Assembly (NCBI RefSeq): GCF_000063445.1
Contig: NC_009464.1
Span: forward strand, 1,240,001 to 1,304,000
DNA from: Methanocella arvoryzae MRE50
GTDB taxonomy: Archaea > Halobacteriota > Methanocellia > Methanocellales > Methanocellaceae
Reading direction: 5' to 3'
Length of the DNA: 64,000 nt
The translations under genes were made by a program, and so were the position numbers. This document shows positions 27,546 to 36,670 of this stretch, one piece after another. The notes beneath the pieces were generated by a model that had not been told where the DNA came from, did not search any database, and worked only from the letters and a program-made list of their open reading frames with translations. Position 1 is the stretch's first letter. The number at the start of each line of letters is the position of its first letter.

Positions 27546-28295
27546 ATGCAGCTCAAGATCGGCACCTGCGGCTGGGGCTTGAAAGGCAGGCACGAGGCCT
27601 ACTATTCCGAGTTTGGGGTGGTCGAGCTGCAGGATACTTTTAACAGGCTCCCGAAGCCGGAGACGGCCCTGCACTGGAAAGAGGAGGCGCCGCCGGGCTT
27701 CGAGTTCACTATGAAAGCCTGGCAGGCGATCACCCACCCTTCTGTCAGCCCGACCTGGAGGCAGGGAAAGCTGCCGGAAGGTAACCCGGAGCACATCGGC
27801 CTGCTGCAGCCTACTGAAGAAAACTTGAAGGCGTGGGCTGAGACCGCCGAGATATGCAAAATATTGGAGTGTAGAATTCTCGTAGTGCAGACGCCCCCGA
27901 AATTCGATTCCACGAGGGAGCACATCCAGAACGTCCGCTCGTTTTTCTCGAAGGTGAAGAGACCTTGCGCCGTGGCGTGGGAGCCCAGAGGACGGTGGGA
28001 TAACGAGACAATACGGGGAATGTGCGAGGACCTCAACCTGATCCACATCGTCGACCCCTTCAGGAATAAGCCGGCCAGAAAGACGGACACTGTATACTTC
28101 CGGCTCAACGGCATCGGCCCGGGGGATGCCAACTTCAGGTACAGGTACACGGATCAGGATTTACAAAAGCTGTTCGGCATGCTGGGCACATACGCTGATG
28201 CCCGGGAAGTCTACGTCATGTTCAATAACATGTCTATGGGCGAAGACGCCATCAGATTTAAGAAGATGGCTATGGCGATCAACGCTCAGGTTTGA
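27546..28295 (+). CDS. DUF72 family protein
   Basis: 249 residues, TIM-barrel-like DUF72 (YecE-type). Signature pieces: IGTCGWG at the start, LQDTFNRLPKPET, WKEEAPPGFEFTMKAWQAITH, AWEPRGRWDN, and VYFRLNGIGPG. Function unestablished. ATG 27546 is used, with GAAGGGA upstream; a TTG at 27531 is in frame. Its last 17 bases overlap the convergent ecfT gene. Confidence 0.85.
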   Translation: MQLKIGTCGWGLKGRHEAYYSEFGVVELQDTFNRLPKPETALHWKEEAPPGFEFTMKAWQAITHPSVSPTWRQGKLPEGNPEHIGLLQPTEENLKAWAETAEICKILECRILVVQTPPKFDSTREHIQNVRSFFSKVKRPCAVAWEPRGRWDNETIRGMCEDLNLIHIVDPFRNKPARKTDTVYFRLNGIGPGDANFRYRYTDQDLQKLFGMLGTYADAREVYVMFNNMSMGEDAIRFKKMAMAINAQV

Positions 28296-28881
28296 TGCTG
28301 TAGCATCGTGCTTCCATAGCCTGGGCGATCCGGTCAGCCCTTGCTGAAATGGCGTTGACCAGTGGTATGATGGTGTAGATCTCCCCTTTCAGGTACTGTA
28401 CCGGCCCGTCGAAGCTGACGCCCCGGGCTTCCTGGGCGAGCCTGATTATGTCGTGCTCTTCTTTGATGATCGGGAGGAAAGCGATGGCCAGCACCATCAT
28501 GGTCGCTATGTCCCTGCCTAGGTTAGTCCCGGTCACTTTACCGACAGGCCATAGCAACGCCTGTACTGCCCGGACGAACTCGGCCTCCGTCGTGGTGATG
28601 GTGACGATAGACCCGGCCAAGTAGAGCAGCAGCATACGCATGAAGGATAGCAGGGCAATGTCCGGCCCGGAGATGAGCCACTGGAATAGCGCTATGATGA
28701 GGATGAAAGGCATAGCGGGCACGAGCATTTTTAAAAGTCTGCTAATGTCAGCGCCGAGGAGGAGCGCGCATGCGAGAAGTACTGCTACGCATGCCAGGAG
28801 CATCCGAAGGTCCCCTATGATGACAATGCCTATGCTGAAGACCGACAGGCCGATCAGCTTAATTATGGCCGGCACTTTCAC
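28279..28881 (-). CDS. ecfT: ECF transporter T component (energy-coupling membrane protein)
   Basis: 200 residues, about five hydrophobic segments. The two coupling motifs that contact the ATPases are visible as QEARGVSF and AMEARCYSI. Last gene of bioY-ecfA-ecfA-ecfT; start overlaps the upstream ATPase gene by 23 bases. With BioY it forms the biotin uptake complex (BioN role), although it could also serve other S components. Confidence 0.88.
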   Translation of the reverse strand: MKVPAIIKLIGLSVFSIGIVIIGDLRMLLACVAVLLACALLLGADISRLLKMLVPAMPFILIIALFQWLISGPDIALLSFMRMLLLYLAGSIVTITTTEAEFVRAVQALLWPVGKVTGTNLGRDIATMMVLAIAFLPIIKEEHDIIRLAQEARGVSFDGPVQYLKGEIYTIIPLVNAISARADRIAQAMEARCYSIKPER

Positions 28882-29665
28882 GCCTGATCACCTCGGCCAC
28901 CCGGTCTGCCAGATCCTCGGGGGAGAATGTCTCCGGCACGTCGAAACCGCACTCCTTCAGCTTTCTGGCGAGCGCCAGCGTATCAGACCTGATACCCGCC
29001 CTGGCCAGGTCGACTTTCACGGGCGCACCGTCTGATACGACTTGTCCTCCGTCCAGGATTATCAGACGGCTACATATGTCCGCGAAGAAAGAGGGATCGT
29101 GAGAGGCGATGACGATGGTCACCCCACTCCTGTTCAGGCTTCTGAGGAGCTCCGCAATTCGCCGTTTCCATGGATAGTCCAGGCCCGCGGTGGGCTCGTC
29201 CAGGAATAGATATGCAGGCCGGGCGGAGAGTACTGAAGCGATTCCAGCCAGGCGTTTCTGTCCGTAGCTCAGCGAAGCGTGGGGCTGTGTCAGCAGGCTG
29301 TCGGGCATGCCAATGGCCTCCTTCGCATAAGCCACCCGGCGGCTCACGTCTTCGTCTTTCAGGCCGGCATTTTTTGGCGCGAACGCCAGGTCGTCGTAGA
29401 TCGTCTTTCCGAAGAGCGCCCTTTCCGGGAACTGGATGGCCAGGCCTACCTTGCTTCTGGCTTTTGCTGCAGGCTGGCCATCGATCGTCACGGTGCCCAT
29501 GGAAGGCTTCTGGAGGCCGGCAAGACACTTGAGCAGGGTGCTTTTACCCGAGCCATTCCTGCCGCAGACTGCCACAAGTTCGCCGGGCCCGATCTCCAGC
29601 TCAACGGCATCAAGGGCGGTAACGTCGTAATAAAAGTGGCTCACGCCTTCGGCTTTAACTGGCAT
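28859..29665 (-). CDS. ecfA: ECF transporter ATP-binding protein (second)
   Basis: 268 residues. Walker A CGRNGSGKSTLLKCL, Q-loop AIQFPERALFGKT, signature LSYGQKRLAG (Tyr in place of Gly), Walker B YLFLDEPTAGLD, and H-loop ASHDPSFF. The FPE after the Q is typical of EcfA2. It pairs with the next ATPase, whose signature is canonical, giving the usual EcfA heterodimer. Overlaps both neighbours by about 24 bases. Confidence 0.88.
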   Translation of the reverse strand: MPVKAEGVSHFYYDVTALDAVELEIGPGELVAVCGRNGSGKSTLLKCLAGLQKPSMGTVTIDGQPAAKARSKVGLAIQFPERALFGKTIYDDLAFAPKNAGLKDEDVSRRVAYAKEAIGMPDSLLTQPHASLSYGQKRLAGIASVLSARPAYLFLDEPTAGLDYPWKRRIAELLRSLNRSGVTIVIASHDPSFFADICSRLIILDGGQVVSDGAPVKVDLARAGIRSDTLALARKLKECGFDVPETFSPEDLADRVAEVIRRESAGHN

Positions 29666-30426
29666 AGCACCTCCACGGTACCATCTACGGTCAGTTGCGG
29701 CCGATCTACTTTGATACCCCTTTCGCCCAGCCGGTTCCAGAACCTCGCCAGCCCGGGCAATTCGATGTCGGCGTCGGTCGGTGCGATTGCATTATATGAG
29801 GCAATCCTCCCGTCCTTTAGCACGAGTATACGATCAGCCGCTCCCATGATATCCGGATCATGGGTAATGAGCAGGACGCCTTTTCCGGCAGACTTCGCAG
29901 CCGCGACAGCCTGCATGATCAACCCTGTCCCATCCTGGTCCAGCATGGCGGTAGGCTCGTCGAGAACAATGTACGCAGGCCTCATGGCCAGGACGCCGGC
30001 AATGGCCACGAGCTGTTTCTGGCCTCCGGAGAGCGTCTGGATATCCCGGTCAGCAAGATGCTCTATGCCCAGGGTTTTTAGAGCGTCGGCAACACGTGCC
30101 TCGACGTCCGGCGCCCCGATGTTCAGGGGACCGAAGGCCACGTCGTCCGAGACTCTGCGGGATACCACCTGATCATCGGGGTCCTGAAATACGAGCCCGA
30201 CTTGCAGCCGGGCATTAAGAGGATCATCCTTAGTGCTGACACCGTCGACGACGCATTCGCCGCTCCCGGGAATAAGCAGGCCGTCCAGGATTCTGGCGAG
30301 CGTCGATTTGCCCGAAGCGTTAGGGCCCATGAGAGCGACTATCTCGCCCGGGCGGATCTCCAGGGAGACGTCTTTCAGCACTTCTGTTCCAGCGTACGAG
30401 AGGCTTACATGCCGGAGCTCGATCAT
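29641..30426 (-). CDS. ecfA: ECF transporter ATP-binding protein (first)
   Basis: 261 residues. Walker A MGPNASGKSTLARIL, Q-loop VFQDPDDQVVSRRVSDDV (DPDDQ is EcfA1-like), signature TLSGGQKQLVAIAGVLAM, Walker B YIVLDEPTAMLD, H-loop ITHD. Eight bases after bioY. Its C-terminal tail (about 215-261) is a short extra domain common in EcfA. Confidence 0.9.
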   Translation of the reverse strand: MIELRHVSLSYAGTEVLKDVSLEIRPGEIVALMGPNASGKSTLARILDGLLIPGSGECVVDGVSTKDDPLNARLQVGLVFQDPDDQVVSRRVSDDVAFGPLNIGAPDVEARVADALKTLGIEHLADRDIQTLSGGQKQLVAIAGVLAMRPAYIVLDEPTAMLDQDGTGLIMQAVAAAKSAGKGVLLITHDPDIMGAADRILVLKDGRIASYNAIAPTDADIELPGLARFWNRLGERGIKVDRPQLTVDGTVEVLCQLKPKA

Positions 30427-30434
30427 GACGATAC

Positions 30435-30962
30435 CTAAACCTTGATCCTTTTTGCAATGTACGCGCCGATCAGCACTTTCAGGATGTCGGTCGGCACGAA
30501 CACGAGGGCTCCGACCAATATTGCCTTATCGATCGGCAGGCCGGTTACGATTGATAGCTGTATGACACCACAAACGTCGATGATGAGTATACCGATTGTC
30601 AGGGCCAGACAGTACCACCAGTAGCCCGGCTTTTCCTTCATCCTGACGATCAGGCCGATGGCGATGGCGGCGAGGATGAACCCGATCAGGTAGCCTCCGC
30701 TCTGCCCGAAGAGCACGCCCAGGCCGGACTGGCCTCTGGAAAAGACGGGAAGCCCTATCAGCCCCAGCAAAACGTAGACGATCATTGACAGGGCGCCGAA
30801 GTACGGGCCCAGAACGGCCCCGGACAGAATGGTGAACAGCGTCTGCAAGGTCACAGACACATAAGGAAGGGGTATGGCGATCCAGCTGCCGATGCCGGTA
30901 AGAGCGGCGAATAGGGCCGCGTAAACCATCTTTTTAACAGAGTAACCCTGCTTCTCGGGCAT
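30435..30962 (-). CDS. bioY: Biotin transporter BioY (S component)
   Basis: 175 residues, six hydrophobic segments. MVYAALFAALTGIGSWI, PYVSVTLQTLFTILSGAVLG and GLPVFSRGQSGLGVLFGQSGGYL are the BioY signatures (substrate-binding FSxGxxGxGxLxGxTGGYL). First gene of the ECF operon. The ATG (30962-30960) is only four bases from a perfect BirA-type operator, and GAGGT within that operator can act as ribosome site. Confidence 0.93.
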   Translation of the reverse strand: MPEKQGYSVKKMVYAALFAALTGIGSWIAIPLPYVSVTLQTLFTILSGAVLGPYFGALSMIVYVLLGLIGLPVFSRGQSGLGVLFGQSGGYLIGFILAAIAIGLIVRMKEKPGYWWYCLALTIGILIIDVCGVIQLSIVTGLPIDKAILVGALVFVPTDILKVLIGAYIAKRIKV

Positions 30963-30966
30963 ATAA

Positions 30967-30998
30967 TTGTAAACCTCAAAAAAATTAGTGGTTTACAA
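30967..30998 (-). promoter_or_regulatory. BirA-type biotin operator in front of bioY
   Basis: TTGTAAACC (30967-30975), 14-base spacer, GGTTTACAA (30990-30998): nine-base arms that are exact complements and equal the known BirA/BPL operator consensus TTGTAAACC-N14/15-GGTTTACAA. It spans the expected transcription start, with AT-rich TTTAAGTATTTG upstream (minus strand) as TATA region. A BirA with DNA-binding domain is encoded at 32396-33355. Confidence 0.92.
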
Positions 30999-31022
30999 AT
31001 ACTTAAAGATTACCTGTCGGGA

Positions 31023-32342
31023 TCATCTTCTTCCTGCGATCAGATATGCCCCCAGGATAGCCGCCATCAGGAGCGTTATGCCAGGAGACGGTGCAGGCAC
31101 AGGCGTAGGCACTGGCGTCGGTGTCGGGGTGGGCGTCGCCGGTACCGGGGTAGGCGTTGCCGGGTACCACCAGGGGGCCATGGAAGGGAACCAGGGCACC
31201 GGCGAGTACCGGTCTGTCTTCGTACCGTCGCCCAGCTGACCGAACTGGTTCATGCCCCAGACCCAGACGTTGCCATACGTGTCTATAGCCATGCATCCCG
31301 TAGGTGCTGCATAGATCTTCTTGATGTCGTACAGCCCCTTCACCTGCACAGGCTCGGGGTGCCTCTCATTGTCCGCACTTCCGGTCCCCAGCACGCCATT
31401 GCCGTTGTAGCCCCAGGCCCACACAGTACCGTCGTACTTTAGTGCCAGAGAGTAGCGATCGCTGGCCGCTATGGTTTTGACGTTCCGGAGGTTCCCGCAT
31501 TTGACAGGGACGAGGCTGTTGTTAGGGATGCCGTCGCCAAGCTGGCCGTAGTCGTTGCCTCCCCAGGCCCAGACGGTGCCGTCTTCCAGCAGTGCGAGAG
31601 AGTGGTATTCGCCCGCGGCGACATCGGTAACCTCGTTGATCCTGACTTTCACAGGCGTGTTGCTGCTGTTGTAAGTGCCGTCGCCAAGCTGGCCGAAAAG
31701 ATTGTCTCCCCAGGCGTAAGCCTCCATGCCATAAGTGGCAATGGAATGCCTGCCGCCGGCTGCTATCGATCGGATGCCCTGGACGCCCATGACTCTGGCA
31801 GGCTCACCTGTCAGCGCCTTGCTGCCGTTGCCCAGCTGGCCGAAGCTGTTATCGCCCCAGCTCCACACGGTGCCGTCGACTTTCAGCGCCAGCACGTGCC
31901 CCTCGCCAGCGTCGATGCGGGCAACGTTGCTCATGTTAGGGATCTGAGTGAATACGGCATTGTCTGCCCGGTTCCGCTGCCCCAGCTGGCCGGCGTCGTT
32001 ATTACCGGACGTCCACACCGTGCCATCGTTTCTGAGGATGACCGTGTAACCATAGCCGCCGTCTATCGAAGAGATGCCGATCAGGTTACCGCCGAGGAGG
32101 TCCGTATAGTCCTTGATGAGCACCGGGACTAATCGATTGATGTACGTGCCGTCGCCAAGCTGGCCGTTATTATTGTTTCCCCAGGCCCAGAGAGAGCCGT
32201 CGTTCTTGATCATGAAACCGCAGCCATCCCCAAGATACGCGGCGGCTGGAGGCGTATCGGTGACGGCGGCCATGGCCGGGGATAGCAGGAGCGTTCCTAA
32301 AACCAGTACCAGAGCAAGTTTCTTCCACCACAAGGCAACCAC
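31023..32342 (-). CDS. RCC1-repeat surface protein with C-terminal anchor
   Basis: About 439 residues. Signal peptide from GTG 32342 (WWKKLALVLVLGTLLLSPAMA), then about seven RCC1 repeats with the motif W-x-W-G-x-N-x-x-GQLGDGT and (S/Y)-S-L-A-L-x-x-DGTVW, which should fold as one seven-bladed propeller. A Pro/Thr linker (TPVPATPTPTPT) and a C-terminal membrane helix ending AGRR follow, resembling archaeal PGF-CTERM-like anchors. The longer reading frame upstream of 32342 runs over birA and is unlikely. Ligand unknown. Confidence 0.8.
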   Translation of the reverse strand: MVALWWKKLALVLVLGTLLLSPAMAAVTDTPPAAAYLGDGCGFMIKNDGSLWAWGNNNNGQLGDGTYINRLVPVLIKDYTDLLGGNLIGISSIDGGYGYTVILRNDGTVWTSGNNDAGQLGQRNRADNAVFTQIPNMSNVARIDAGEGHVLALKVDGTVWSWGDNSFGQLGNGSKALTGEPARVMGVQGIRSIAAGGRHSIATYGMEAYAWGDNLFGQLGDGTYNSSNTPVKVRINEVTDVAAGEYHSLALLEDGTVWAWGGNDYGQLGDGIPNNSLVPVKCGNLRNVKTIAASDRYSLALKYDGTVWAWGYNGNGVLGTGSADNERHPEPVQVKGLYDIKKIYAAPTGCMAIDTYGNVWVWGMNQFGQLGDGTKTDRYSPVPWFPSMAPWWYPATPTPVPATPTPTPTPVPTPVPAPSPGITLLMAAILGAYLIAGRR

Positions 32343-32395
32343 TGGCTTATGGTCGGCTGAGAGGATAATAAAGGTTGCGCAGACGCATGAAGAGA

Positions 32396-33355
32396 TTAGT
32401 TTTTCAAACTCCGGAGGTGAATGCAATCTCCGGAGACGATCTTGCGGACGCTCCCGTCGGCCAGCTTCACGAGGAGGGATCCCGCGTCGTCCACGTCCTG
32501 TGCGATGCCGCGGATGGCCTCGCCCTGGTAGGTGACTTCCACCGGCCTGCCGAGGGTGTCGGAGTACCTGCGCCAGTTCCACAGGATCGGGGTGAAGCCC
32601 TGTTCCCGGAGGGTGGCGTAGTCCTCGTCAAGCTCCTCCAGGATGCTCTGGGCCAGCTTCAGCCTGTCGACCTTGTGGCCCAGCTCTGCCCGGGCTGTGG
32701 TCGCAATGTCCAGTGGCACTTCGTTGTTGACATTGATGCCGGCGCTCAGGATGATAAAGTTCACCATGTCGGTCTCTGCGCTCATCTCGGTCAGGATACC
32801 GCAGATCTTCTTGCCGTTGACCAGAACGTCATTCGGCCACTTGATCACGGCTTCGAGGCCGAGCTCCCGCAGCGCCTTCGTCACTGACACGGCGGCCATC
32901 AGCGTGATGCTGGCCGCGTGCATGGGGTCGATCTTCGGCTTGAGCACCACGGTCATCCAGATGCCGCCCTGCCTCGCGCTCCACTTTCTCCCCAGCCGGC
33001 CTTTGCCCCGGGTCTGTGTCTCCGCGATGACGACCGTACCTTCCTCTATCCCCCGCTCCGCCAGCTGCCTCGCCACGAGGTGTGTGGAGCCGGTCACGTT
33101 GAAGTGGACGATCTTGCTCCCGATCAGCCTGGTCTGCAGGCCGTACCTGACTTCGAACGGGTAGAGCTTATCGGGTATACCGGTCAGCTTATAACCCTTG
33201 TTCTGGTGGGACTCGATCTCGTACCCGTCCCGCACGAGCGCCTGGACCTGCTTCCAGATCGCAGCCCGGGAAACGCCGAGCGCTTCGGCCATCTGCTCCC
33301 CGGAAACGTAGTCCCCTTTCTCTCTCAGAAGTCGCAGGATCTCGTCCTTGGCCAT
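32396..33355 (-). CDS. birA: Biotin--protein ligase and biotin operon repressor
   Basis: 319 residues, bifunctional BirA. N-terminal winged helix (about 1-60: LLREKGDYVSGEQMAEALGV then SRAAIWKQVQALV) binds DNA. The catalytic domain has TQTRGKGRLGRKWSA (biotinyl-AMP loop, GRGRRG type), GGIWMTVVLKP, and IKWPNDVLVNGKKICGIL. A C-terminal SH3-like domain follows. It attaches biotin to carboxylase subunits and, when charged, should bind the TTGTAAACC operator before bioY. Starts ATG 33355. Confidence 0.93.
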   Translation of the reverse strand: MAKDEILRLLREKGDYVSGEQMAEALGVSRAAIWKQVQALVRDGYEIESHQNKGYKLTGIPDKLYPFEVRYGLQTRLIGSKIVHFNVTGSTHLVARQLAERGIEEGTVVIAETQTRGKGRLGRKWSARQGGIWMTVVLKPKIDPMHAASITLMAAVSVTKALRELGLEAVIKWPNDVLVNGKKICGILTEMSAETDMVNFIILSAGINVNNEVPLDIATTARAELGHKVDRLKLAQSILEELDEDYATLREQGFTPILWNWRRYSDTLGRPVEVTYQGEAIRGIAQDVDDAGSLLVKLADGSVRKIVSGDCIHLRSLKN

Positions 33356-33541: not shown

Positions 33542-34210
33542 TTACCTGACGCGGGTGGGCGTAGTCACGGGGCAGCCGCAGTCACCGCAGTCGATGTCGA
33601 AGCAGTTGAGCCTGGCGTTGACCTGCGGAAGTGCGATGGTCGCCTGCGGAGCCAGGTTGATGACCGGGAACTCCGGCTTGATGACCGGGGACACAAGGTC
33701 TACCCGCTGGGGCACGGTGTTCACGACAGGGCAGCCAAGGTTAACGATGGGTCCCTGGAAGGTGGTCAGCCTCTCCTCGCAGGTGCACTCCGGGCATACG
33801 CCGCAGTCGCCATCACAGGCCAGAGTGTTGAGCGGGCACGCGTCGATGCTGTTGATCAGGCTGATAGCCTCCAGGTCCGTCTGGGCGCCGAGAGCGTCAG
33901 CGGTGATGCCGTCAAGGACAGGGAATCCGAACGCGTCTGCACTGGAGGCGGCAAAGGCTTCCTTCTGGAGCGCTTCAGCTACCGCGGTGCCGTCAACCTG
34001 GGTTACGGGAACTGTGGTTGATACAACGCTGTCCAGGGCTGTTCCGCAGGTGCATGCGTCGCAGCACGGGCTGTCCCCGGTGCAGACACACTTATCGCCA
34101 CAGGTGCAGCTCGAGCAGCAATTAGGATTTGAGCATGCCATGGCAGTACCTGCTGTGAAGATCAACAGGACACTGGCAATGGCCAGCGCTATTAATAATT
34201 TTACCCTCAT
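33542..34210 (-). CDS. Secreted Cys-cluster (metallothionein-like) protein
   Basis: 222 residues from ATG 34210. Signal peptide VKLLIALAIASVLLIFTAG then TAMA, then a block of about 30 residues with eleven Cys (CSNPNCCSSCTCGDKCVC followed by CCDACTC), a second block of six (ACPLNTLACDGDC, VCPECTC) and a third of four near the C-terminus (CFDIDCGDCGC). Between blocks lie Cys-free, Val/Pro-rich segments. Such CxC/CC packing is typical of metal-thiolate clusters, but export is unusual. I know no named family. Strand-specific TATA and GAGGGT site lie upstream. The start 34246 in frame is less likely. Confidence 0.72.
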   Translation of the reverse strand: MRVKLLIALAIASVLLIFTAGTAMACSNPNCCSSCTCGDKCVCTGDSPCCDACTCGTALDSVVSTTVPVTQVDGTAVAEALQKEAFAASSADAFGFPVLDGITADALGAQTDLEAISLINSIDACPLNTLACDGDCGVCPECTCEERLTTFQGPIVNLGCPVVNTVPQRVDLVSPVIKPEFPVINLAPQATIALPQVNARLNCFDIDCGDCGCPVTTPTRVR

Positions 34211-34365
34211 CTTCAATACCCTCCATATTTGAAAAAAGGTTTGCATGCCAGAATAAATAGCTTATACGGGAAAAGGGCACATTTTTACAGAGTGGGCACT
34301 TCTTATAGCATTAATACTGGTAAAACTAAGAAAAGAAGAAGATTTTATGGCCGTACTGCCAGCGT

Positions 34366-35607
34366 TCATGCAGGTTTGGGCAACATCATACCACCGTACG
34401 GGGATACGAGCACCTTCGCGTTCGGGCCGTGCTTCTTTAGAGCTGCGTCCAGCGCCTCCTGCGGCGTCTTTACCGGCTTCAGGAACATCTTGCGGACGGT
34501 CTCGTCGGGGATCTTCGAGACCAGGAAGATTTCGCACTTCTGGGCGGTGCGGGCGATGACCGACGCCTTATGGCCCCCGAGCTCGAACTTTTTGTCCATG
34601 CGGGCGGCCTGCTCTTCGATAGTCGTGGCCTCGTCCACCCAGCACGCGAACACGTCATTGCCCAGGCACTCTTCGCACTCGGCGACCATGATCATGGTGC
34701 CGCCCTGCTTAACCACGTGCTTGGCGTTGTCCATCGCCTTCTGAGCCTGGTACATGTTGATGTCTTTAGGATATCCGCCCGCGCTGGTGATCACGATGTC
34801 GGCGACCGGGACTTTCGCGCTGTACATCCGGTCCACGTACTCGATGCCCTTGCGGTGTGCCTGTATGGGATCGCCGGCCACCACAGCCACGATCTCTTTC
34901 CGGCTGTTGAGCACCACGTCCAGCAGGAAGCCAGGCTTCACCATGTGGTAAACCTCGTCGATCTCCACCCTGATGGGGCTGTCGATCCGGCCGGTCTCGG
35001 CTTTGGGGCTGCGCATCATCTCGTGGTTGTTCTGGATGGTGTCGTGGCTCGCACACCCCGGCAGGATCGCCTTGACTCCACCGGAATAGCCGGCAAAATA
35101 GTGGTACTCGATATTGCCGGTACAGACGACGAAGTCGGCGTCGACAATCTCCCGGAAGACGTGAATGCGGTGGCCGAACGAGGAGGTGCCGACGTACTTA
35201 GCGTCGTACTTGTCCTGATCGATGCACCGGACCCGCCCGTAGGACTGCCCCATAAGCGCCTTGTGCTCTTCCGGAGTGCTCTTGCGATGGCTGCCGAGGG
35301 CTACCACGACGGTGATGTCGCTGTCCTGGACGCCGCCGGCGTTGAGCTCGTCGAGCAGCATGGGCAGGAACTTGTAGGATGGCACTGGCCGGGTGACGTC
35401 GCTGATGATGACGGCTACTTTCATGCCCGGCTTGACCTTTTCCCTGAGCCTCTGGGAGCCGATCGGGTTTTCCAGCGCCCGGCGTATCTCCGCGACTTCG
35501 TCCGGCACGCCTGCGAGCTCCTCGGGCAGGATGATGCCAGCCAGATTTTCCTCGGGAACGTCGACGTCGAAATGACCTTTGCCGTACTTTAAAGATATGA
35601 TTGTCAT
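34366..35607 (-). CDS. larA: Nickel-dependent lactate racemase family protein
   Basis: 413 residues, LarA (DUF2088) family. ISDVTRPVPSYKFLP, VALGSHRKSTPEE, the GNIEYHYFAGYSGGVKAILPG region (its Lys carries the nickel-pincer cofactor in LarA), and a C-terminal domain with ITSAGGYPKDINMYQAQKA are present. It interconverts D- and L-lactate, or another 2-hydroxyacid. LarB, LarC and LarE, which make the cofactor, are not in the window. Last gene of an operon with a Fe-S subunit and a FAD oxidase (gap 4 bases). Confidence 0.87.
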   Translation of the reverse strand: MTIISLKYGKGHFDVDVPEENLAGIILPEELAGVPDEVAEIRRALENPIGSQRLREKVKPGMKVAVIISDVTRPVPSYKFLPMLLDELNAGGVQDSDITVVVALGSHRKSTPEEHKALMGQSYGRVRCIDQDKYDAKYVGTSSFGHRIHVFREIVDADFVVCTGNIEYHYFAGYSGGVKAILPGCASHDTIQNNHEMMRSPKAETGRIDSPIRVEIDEVYHMVKPGFLLDVVLNSRKEIVAVVAGDPIQAHRKGIEYVDRMYSAKVPVADIVITSAGGYPKDINMYQAQKAMDNAKHVVKQGGTMIMVAECEECLGNDVFACWVDEATTIEEQAARMDKKFELGGHKASVIARTAQKCEIFLVSKIPDETVRKMFLKPVKTPQEALDAALKKHGPNAKVLVSPYGGMMLPKPA

Positions 35608-35611
35608 TGTA

Positions 35612-36670
35612 TTACCCCTCTGCTTTTCCGTCGATCGATCTCAGGATCAGATCGCAGATGTCGATGACTTTCGCGCCTGCATCTTCCAGGTTGGAGTTGC
35701 ACATCGGGCAGGCGGTCACTATGTAATCCGTGCCTGCGGGTACTTCGTTAAGGCGCTTGGCGGCCACTTTCCGGGCCAGATCTTTATAGCCCCTCCGCAC
35801 TCCGCCTCCCCCTCCGCAGCACCTCGCGTCCTTCTTCGAGGAGGCCATCTCGGTGAAGCTGCCGATTCGCCTGATGATCATCCGGGGCTCGTCGTAGACG
35901 TGCATGCACCGGCCGAGGTGGCAGGGGTCGTGGTAGGTCAGCTTCAATGGCAGCGGCTTCAGGCCGAGCTCGTCCACCTTTCGGGCGAGGAACTGGGTGA
36001 TGTGCAGGACTTCCACGTTGCCGAGGCCATAGGTTTCTTTGAGTGTCTTGTAGCAGCCGGCGCAGCTCGTCACTATCGTCTTTGCCCCGCTCTGCTCAAT
36101 CTGGCGGATGTTGTGCTCGATAGTGGCGGGCTTGCCGCCCAGCCGGAGCAACGGAGATCCGCAGCACTGCTCATCCTCGAGGAGCTTCGCCCCGAAGCGG
36201 CTCAGCAGAGAGAAAGCAGCCTGTGCCTCTTTCTGTTTTCGGTAAGACATCAGGCATCCGGCGAAGTAGATGAGATCGGATTTGCCAGTGGAGCCCGCGG
36301 GAGCCCACGCGGCCCTGGAACCGGCTTCGCCGAGGGGATTCCCGAAGCTGGCTATGTTACCTTCTACCATGCCGTAGTAGGCCGGGACTGCGCCGGCCCG
36401 GACCATCTCCGCCCGGGCAGCCTCGACTACCTCGTCCGGCGTTGCCCCGGAAGGGCAGGTAGAGGAGCACATAGCGCAGGTCAGGCAAGTGTAGAAGGAA
36501 TTTTTCATCGCTTCAGACGGCTGCACGCCCTCGGCCATCGCCCGGGCCAGCAGCATCCTGCCTCTGGCGTTGGTGGACTCCCAGCCCAGTTCCTCGTTGA
36601 CCGGGCACAGTGCCCGGCACCGCCCGCAGCGGGTACATTTCAGGATATCGTCGATGTGGTCCTTGATCAT
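35612..36670 (-). CDS. Fe-S oxidoreductase subunit (GlcF/LldE-like)
   Basis: 352 residues. Two 4Fe-4S motifs at the N-terminus: CTRCGRCRALCP (about 12) and CLTCAMCSSTCP (about 62). Two cysteine-rich CCG domains follow: DEQCCGSPLL with SCAGCYKTL, then CHLGRC, ARCCGGGGGVRRG, and CPMCNSN. It would take electrons from the adjacent FAD subunit, like GlcF or the HdrD-type CCG proteins of methanogens, and may pass them to the membrane or to heterodisulfide reductase. Confidence 0.88.
   Translation of the reverse strand: MIKDHIDDILKCTRCGRCRALCPVNEELGWESTNARGRMLLARAMAEGVQPSEAMKNSFYTCLTCAMCSSTCPSGATPDEVVEAARAEMVRAGAVPAYYGMVEGNIASFGNPLGEAGSRAAWAPAGSTGKSDLIYFAGCLMSYRKQKEAQAAFSLLSRFGAKLLEDEQCCGSPLLRLGGKPATIEHNIRQIEQSGAKTIVTSCAGCYKTLKETYGLGNVEVLHITQFLARKVDELGLKPLPLKLTYHDPCHLGRCMHVYDEPRMIIRRIGSFTEMASSKKDARCCGGGGGVRRGYKDLARKVAAKRLNEVPAGTDYIVTACPMCNSNLEDAGAKVIDICDLILRSIDGKAEG

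Follow-up and report, generated by a model that had tools for sequence, protein, structure and literature searches.

What tells a Methanocella cell that it has enough biotin to stop importing it? The question is raised by a 32-base inverted repeat lying just ahead of bioY, the gene for a biotin transporter component, in a 64,000-nucleotide stretch of the Methanocella arvoryzae MRE50 genome (contig NC_009464.1, positions 1,240,001 to 1,304,000), which we call the window and whose coordinates we use throughout. Our analysis indicates that this repeat very probably serves the bioY-ecfA-ecfA'-ecfT operon as its operator and is recognised by a biotin ligase with a helix-turn-helix (HTH) domain, BirA, that would repress biotin uptake when biotin is sufficient.

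The repeat occupies positions 30967-30998 on the minus strand and reads TTGTAAACC-TCAAAAAAATTAGT-GGTTTACAA, with a distal arm at 30990-30998 and a proximal arm at 30967-30975 that are complementary at 9/9 positions. Only four bases (30966-30963) separate it from the ATG of bioY. The published BirA consensus is TTGTAAACC-[N14/15]-GGTTTACAA (PMC545781), and the gap between bioA and bioB of Escherichia coli, which holds the operator bioO, contains TTGTAAACC-N16-GGTTTACAA. The window site, TTGTAAACC-N14-GGTTTACAA, has arms identical to both and is a palindrome of the consensus form at the promoter of a biotin gene. An earlier sequence-only reading of the window had described this exact site, with fully complementary arms equal to the bacterial consensus and four bases from bioY, and direct inspection confirmed each of these points. 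We examined the organism's own genome by sequence-pattern and protein-family searches. When up to three mismatches were allowed, the repeat was found as a single copy in the window and in none of 100 shuffled versions, and a scan of the entire 3,179,916-bp single-contig genome for further copies, which the same reading had suggested, returned none besides this site.

The genes that the site would control form a compact group on the minus strand. The biotin-specific S component of an energy-coupling factor (ECF) transporter is encoded by bioY (30435-30962; PF02632, E 6.3e-40) and is followed by two ECF ATPase genes, A1 (29641-30426) and A2 (28859-29665), and by a gene for a CbiQ-like T component (28279-28881; PF02361, E 5.4e-16), in frames that overlap or nearly abut. 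Both ATPases match ABC_tran, with ECF_ATPase_1 and ECF_ATPase_2 as their respective top NCBIfam models; neither these proteins nor the T protein reach the NCBIfam cut-offs. By the Pfam assignments, the gene set of an ECF biotin transporter is complete within one operon, and bioY thus heads a complete ECF operon that is predicted to encode a biotin transporter.

The candidate regulator is encoded by birA (32396-33355, minus strand), whose stop lies 1.4 kb from the operator edge. Its 319-residue product combines an N-terminal winged HTH with a biotin ligase domain, the architecture of a Group II ligase, as supported by Pfam scores of 58 bits for HTH_11 (cut-off 25), 67 for BPL_LplA_LipB (21) and 52 for BPL_C (21). 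These matches bear out the earlier statement that a winged-helix BirA is encoded 1.4 kb away. The protein aligns with the solved BirA structures of Staphylococcus aureus and E. coli over both the HTH and the ligase parts, retains the ligase motifs GKGRLGRKW and KWPND...GKKICGIL, and reaches the ligase model TIGR00121 (219.7 against a cut-off of 83.1); the cut-offs of the full-length PRK11886 models were not reached.

Both proteins and the site recur among relatives. HTH-BirA (71% identity) and BioY (60–62%) are present in all three other Methanocellia genomes compared, and a box lies directly upstream of bioY in 4/4 Methanocellia genomes. BioY is also present in the genetically tractable Methanosarcina acetivorans and Haloferax volcanii. 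The boxes of two relatives (G001 and G003) have perfect arms around an N13 spacer. The sequence or gene upstream of the box varies within the group; in G001 birA and bioY are neighbours and the box takes up the space between them. Across the phylum, a search with a fixed N14 spacer and three mismatches gave mostly chance matches outside haloarchaea and passed over the relatives' boxes with N13 spacers, and we replaced it with a strict core, GTAAACC-N11..17-GGTTTAC, in 296 genomes. This core matched in 40 of the 296 genomes, compared with 15 for a reversed control pattern. Of 30 strict-core loci that were fetched, 27 lie at bioY, bioB or bioF, 25 of these at bioY; one locus (L046) falls between divergent bioF and bioB and another (L067) at bioB, with gene identities that pass the NCBIfam cut-offs, and one haloarchaeon (G240) carries boxes at both bioB and bioY. 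We also scored regions upstream of bioY against a degenerate box (TYGTHAACC/GGTTDACRA, N13-16). At least 16 of 18 positions matched in 58 of 69 regions from 18 families, and in 0/69 for the reversed control; because the regions were hand-picked for spread and are non-independent, with 32 from a single family, this figure is descriptive. Several matches were set aside as chance: in G001, a three-mismatch match with poor arms (L002, at 2045560) and a second strict match inside a gene resembling a major facilitator superfamily transporter (L234); elsewhere, two matches within coding frames (L049 and L050) and one with no biotin gene nearby (L071).

A further line of evidence comes from families f5, f6 and f15, each of which includes genomes whose BirA bears the HTH and genomes whose BirA lacks it, allowing a comparison within families. 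A box scoring at least 16/18 stands before bioY in 15 of 20 genomes with the HTH and in 1 of 10 without it (Fisher p = 0.0014, kinship ignored), where "without" means that the HTH was not aligned, as judged by where the alignment began in the search results, or that no ligase was found. The sole box-bearing genome among these ten yielded no birA of any kind. Box-like dyads can still be seen near the usual position in the five HTH genomes that fall below the cut-off, and several of these sites keep their dyad symmetry through matched changes in the two arms, as in CAGTAAACC-N12-GGTTAACTG. A correlation between the HTH and the site was reportedly also noted in the 2002 abstract of Rodionov, Mironov and Gelfand. 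Together with the conservation, this co-occurrence strongly supports the proposal of the sequence-only reading that the site is a BirA operator predicted to control biotin uptake, with HTH-BirA as its regulator.

The surroundings of the box suggest how such control might work. A TATA-like element, TTTAAGTA (31000-31007, minus strand), adjoins the distal arm, and TATAAATA or TTTAAATA occupies its position in the three other Methanocellia. The element ends at the start of the distal arm in 4/4 Methanocellia and in families that appear to be Methanosarcinales-like or otherwise methanogen-like. The distance from TATA box to transcription start in archaea is usually about 25 bases. Given this spacing and the abutting element, the start is predicted within the box, at about 30975-30980, and a bound BirA dimer would therefore cover the transcription start of bioY. 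An operator lying across the transcription start, as proposed earlier, is plausible on this geometry. In haloarchaea-like families the spacer contains an A+T-rich, TATA-like stretch and the ATG usually comes 12–15 bases past the box, so that BirA would there sit directly on the TATA element. There is little support for the accompanying suggestion that the operator probably contains the ribosome site. The sole Shine-Dalgarno-like candidate, a GAGG at 30974-30977 (minus strand) that overlaps the proximal arm, is common only to the window and G003, and its function is doubtful; no conserved Shine-Dalgarno-like sequence was found at bioY among the compared boxes. The predicted bioY leader is about 15 bases long, and in G001 and several other methanogens (families f11 and f14) the bioY ATG touches or overlaps the final base of the box.

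These features fit a simple switch. With enough biotin, BirA carrying biotinyl-AMP would dimerise and place one HTH on each arm; the dimer would occupy the DNA from the TATA box almost as far as the bioY start codon, and recruitment of RNA polymerase or initiation would be blocked. When biotin is scarce, uncharged BirA would depart and the uptake operon would be transcribed. The operator, the regulator's domains, the operon, the conservation and the HTH/operator co-occurrence are the parts of this scheme that come from sequence, and we infer the dependence on biotinyl-AMP, the dimerisation, the repression and the block to initiation from the bacterial BirA family. In that family, the HTH-BirA of S. 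aureus has been reported to bind the bioY promoter (PMC6391492), as has the HTH-bearing BirA1 of Lactococcus lactis at bioY1 (PMC4861984).

Several observations weigh against a BirA switch of this kind. The HTH of the window's BirA scores 53 bits on the NCBIfam model TIGR00122, below its cut-off of 70, and the proximal arm of the box in G002, a member of the same genus, is imperfect (TTGTAAACC-N13-GGTTGACGA). A second biotin ligase in the genome, described below, could uncouple BirA from acceptor demand. In addition, families f20 and f21 have HTH-BirA and show no recognisable box near birA-bioY, even upstream of birA. At their loci (L141-L144), birA and bioY are directly coupled behind another gene, an arrangement that may reflect another form of control or a diverged site. 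The predicted operator tracks the BirA HTH in three families, the box being nearly absent where the HTH is missing; the converse fails in f20 and f21, which have the HTH and no box.

Could the dyad serve some other purpose? Winged-helix regulators are numerous in archaea and BirA binding at this site is a prediction, so the box might belong to a different protein. We consider this very improbable, given that the arms match the BirA consensus exactly and are also those of the E. coli operator, that the box is nearly missing where BirA has no HTH, and that sites occur at bioB and bioF too. Even less credible is a role in RNA, either as a terminator at the end of the RCC1-repeat gene upstream or as a hairpin switch in the bioY leader. 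Such a role would account for the T-rich spacer of the inverted repeat and for its place 24 bp past the stop of a same-strand gene. However, no Rfam match and no terminator-like site were found, and the distal arm, which precedes the predicted transcription start, would fall outside the RNA. The box also stays at bioY where the upstream gene differs or is birA, and within families it keeps a steady distance from bioY even as the spacer changes in sequence. The sign of regulation might also be the opposite, with charged BirA activating bioY, since we only infer the direction of control. This, too, seems highly unlikely: the site stretches from the TATA box almost to the start codon, which is a blocking position, and the bacterial BirA systems that have been described act as repressors (PMC545781, PMC6391492).

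A different kind of alternative, compatible with a BirA operator at bioY and refining it, concerns what BirA itself does. In 4/4 Methanocellia, which all have HTH-BirA as well, a PycA-type biotin carboxylase carries a second ligase domain, fused at its C-terminus (G000:C1:2072662-2073438, locus L039, in the genome of the window; L037, L038 and L040 in the relatives). A PycA-BirA/Bpl fusion has been published for Methanocella (PMC11237513). The fusion gene adjoins pycB, whose product carries AMKMEN, the one biotin-acceptor signature that we found in this genome; the other PF00364 match is a lipoyl-type E2. The sequence-only reading had spoken of a complete biotin-sensing circuit, and its operator, operon and HTH-BirA are indeed present, but it omitted this second ligase. 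Uptake should be the source of biotin, since a domain search of the genome found no biotin synthase (BATS-domain), and a published table lists no bio genes in Methanocellales (PMC6138646). M. arvoryzae thus appears unable to make biotin and dependent on its uptake, with one acceptor and two ligases found.

Because the PycA-fused ligase sits beside the only acceptor found, HTH-BirA may be mainly a sensor of biotin or biotinyl-AMP with a minor role as a ligase, a possibility that we raise tentatively and rate at rather below even chances. The switch of Methanocellia would then be split, with the built-in ligase of PycA loading the only known acceptor and HTH-BirA acting as a dedicated sensor, and repression would report free biotin instead of acceptor demand as in E. 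coli; we put this forward with the same reserve. A parallel exists in L. lactis, where BirA1 binds bioY1 and BirA2, which lacks the HTH, is the more active ligase (PMC4861984). On the other hand, the ligase motifs of HTH-BirA are intact, so that it may also load PycB and both enzymes could do so, and in the fused ligase the K before WPND is replaced by S or N, so the fusion could be the weaker enzyme. Elsewhere in the phylum, an HTH-less ligase of another genome (G104, L176) lies in a 707-aa open frame with a protein that, by translation, resembles a radical-SAM/B12-binding protein and not PycA; this may be a fusion or a neighbour joined by the frame.

Other genes of the window were also noted. 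The gene between birA and bioY (31023-32333, minus strand) encodes a probably surface-exposed protein of RCC1 repeats that also has a Pro/Thr-rich stretch and ends in a hydrophobic C-terminus, and G003 appears to carry an RCC1-repeat gene at the corresponding place. Beyond birA lie a gene for a cysteine-rich, secreted-looking protein of 234 aa without an NCBIfam match (33542-34246, minus strand) and a LarA-type gene (34366-35607, minus strand) assigned to the nickel-dependent malate racemases of the LarAH6 family (580 against a cut-off of 500 bits). The latter adjoins a gene for an Fe-S protein resembling TfrB (35612-36670).

The sequence-only reading placed the circuit in an archaeon, which is right and agrees with the presence of a PycA-BirA fusion of the kind published for Methanocella. 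The novelty for an archaeon that it implied is not borne out. In 2002 Rodionov, Mironov and Gelfand (Genome Res 12:1507) had already described predicted BirA sites in archaea, as cited for the same consensus in PMC545781. A BirA-type switch has thus been reported before in archaea, and the Methanocella site is a well-formed further example. It shares with BirA/bioO of E. coli the identical 9-base arms, a bifunctional HTH ligase as presumed repressor and a position at a biotin-gene promoter, whereas its spacer is 14 bases instead of 16, it would control uptake instead of synthesis, its promoter is of the archaeal TATA type, and a second ligase is present. The BirA1/BirA2-bioY1 system of L. lactis (PMC4861984) likewise pairs an HTH ligase at a bioY promoter with a second, HTH-less ligase, but that ligase is free-standing, in contrast to the PycA fusion of Methanocellia. 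The same fusion is the one described in PMC11237513, which, in the portion consulted, draws no tie to bioY control.

The present analysis contributes an archaeal sample of this scale, a comparison of HTH and box within families, a description of the promoter geometry and a connection to the ligase fused to PycA. Overall, a single bacterial-type vitamin switch, both protein and DNA word, appears to sit on archaeal TATA-type promoters throughout a phylum and in two placements: in methanogens the box is next to the TATA element, and in haloarchaea it overlies a TATA-like stretch. Methanocellia, where two ligases and a single acceptor were found, would offer a clean system in which to ask whether the sensing and loading functions of BirA are separable.
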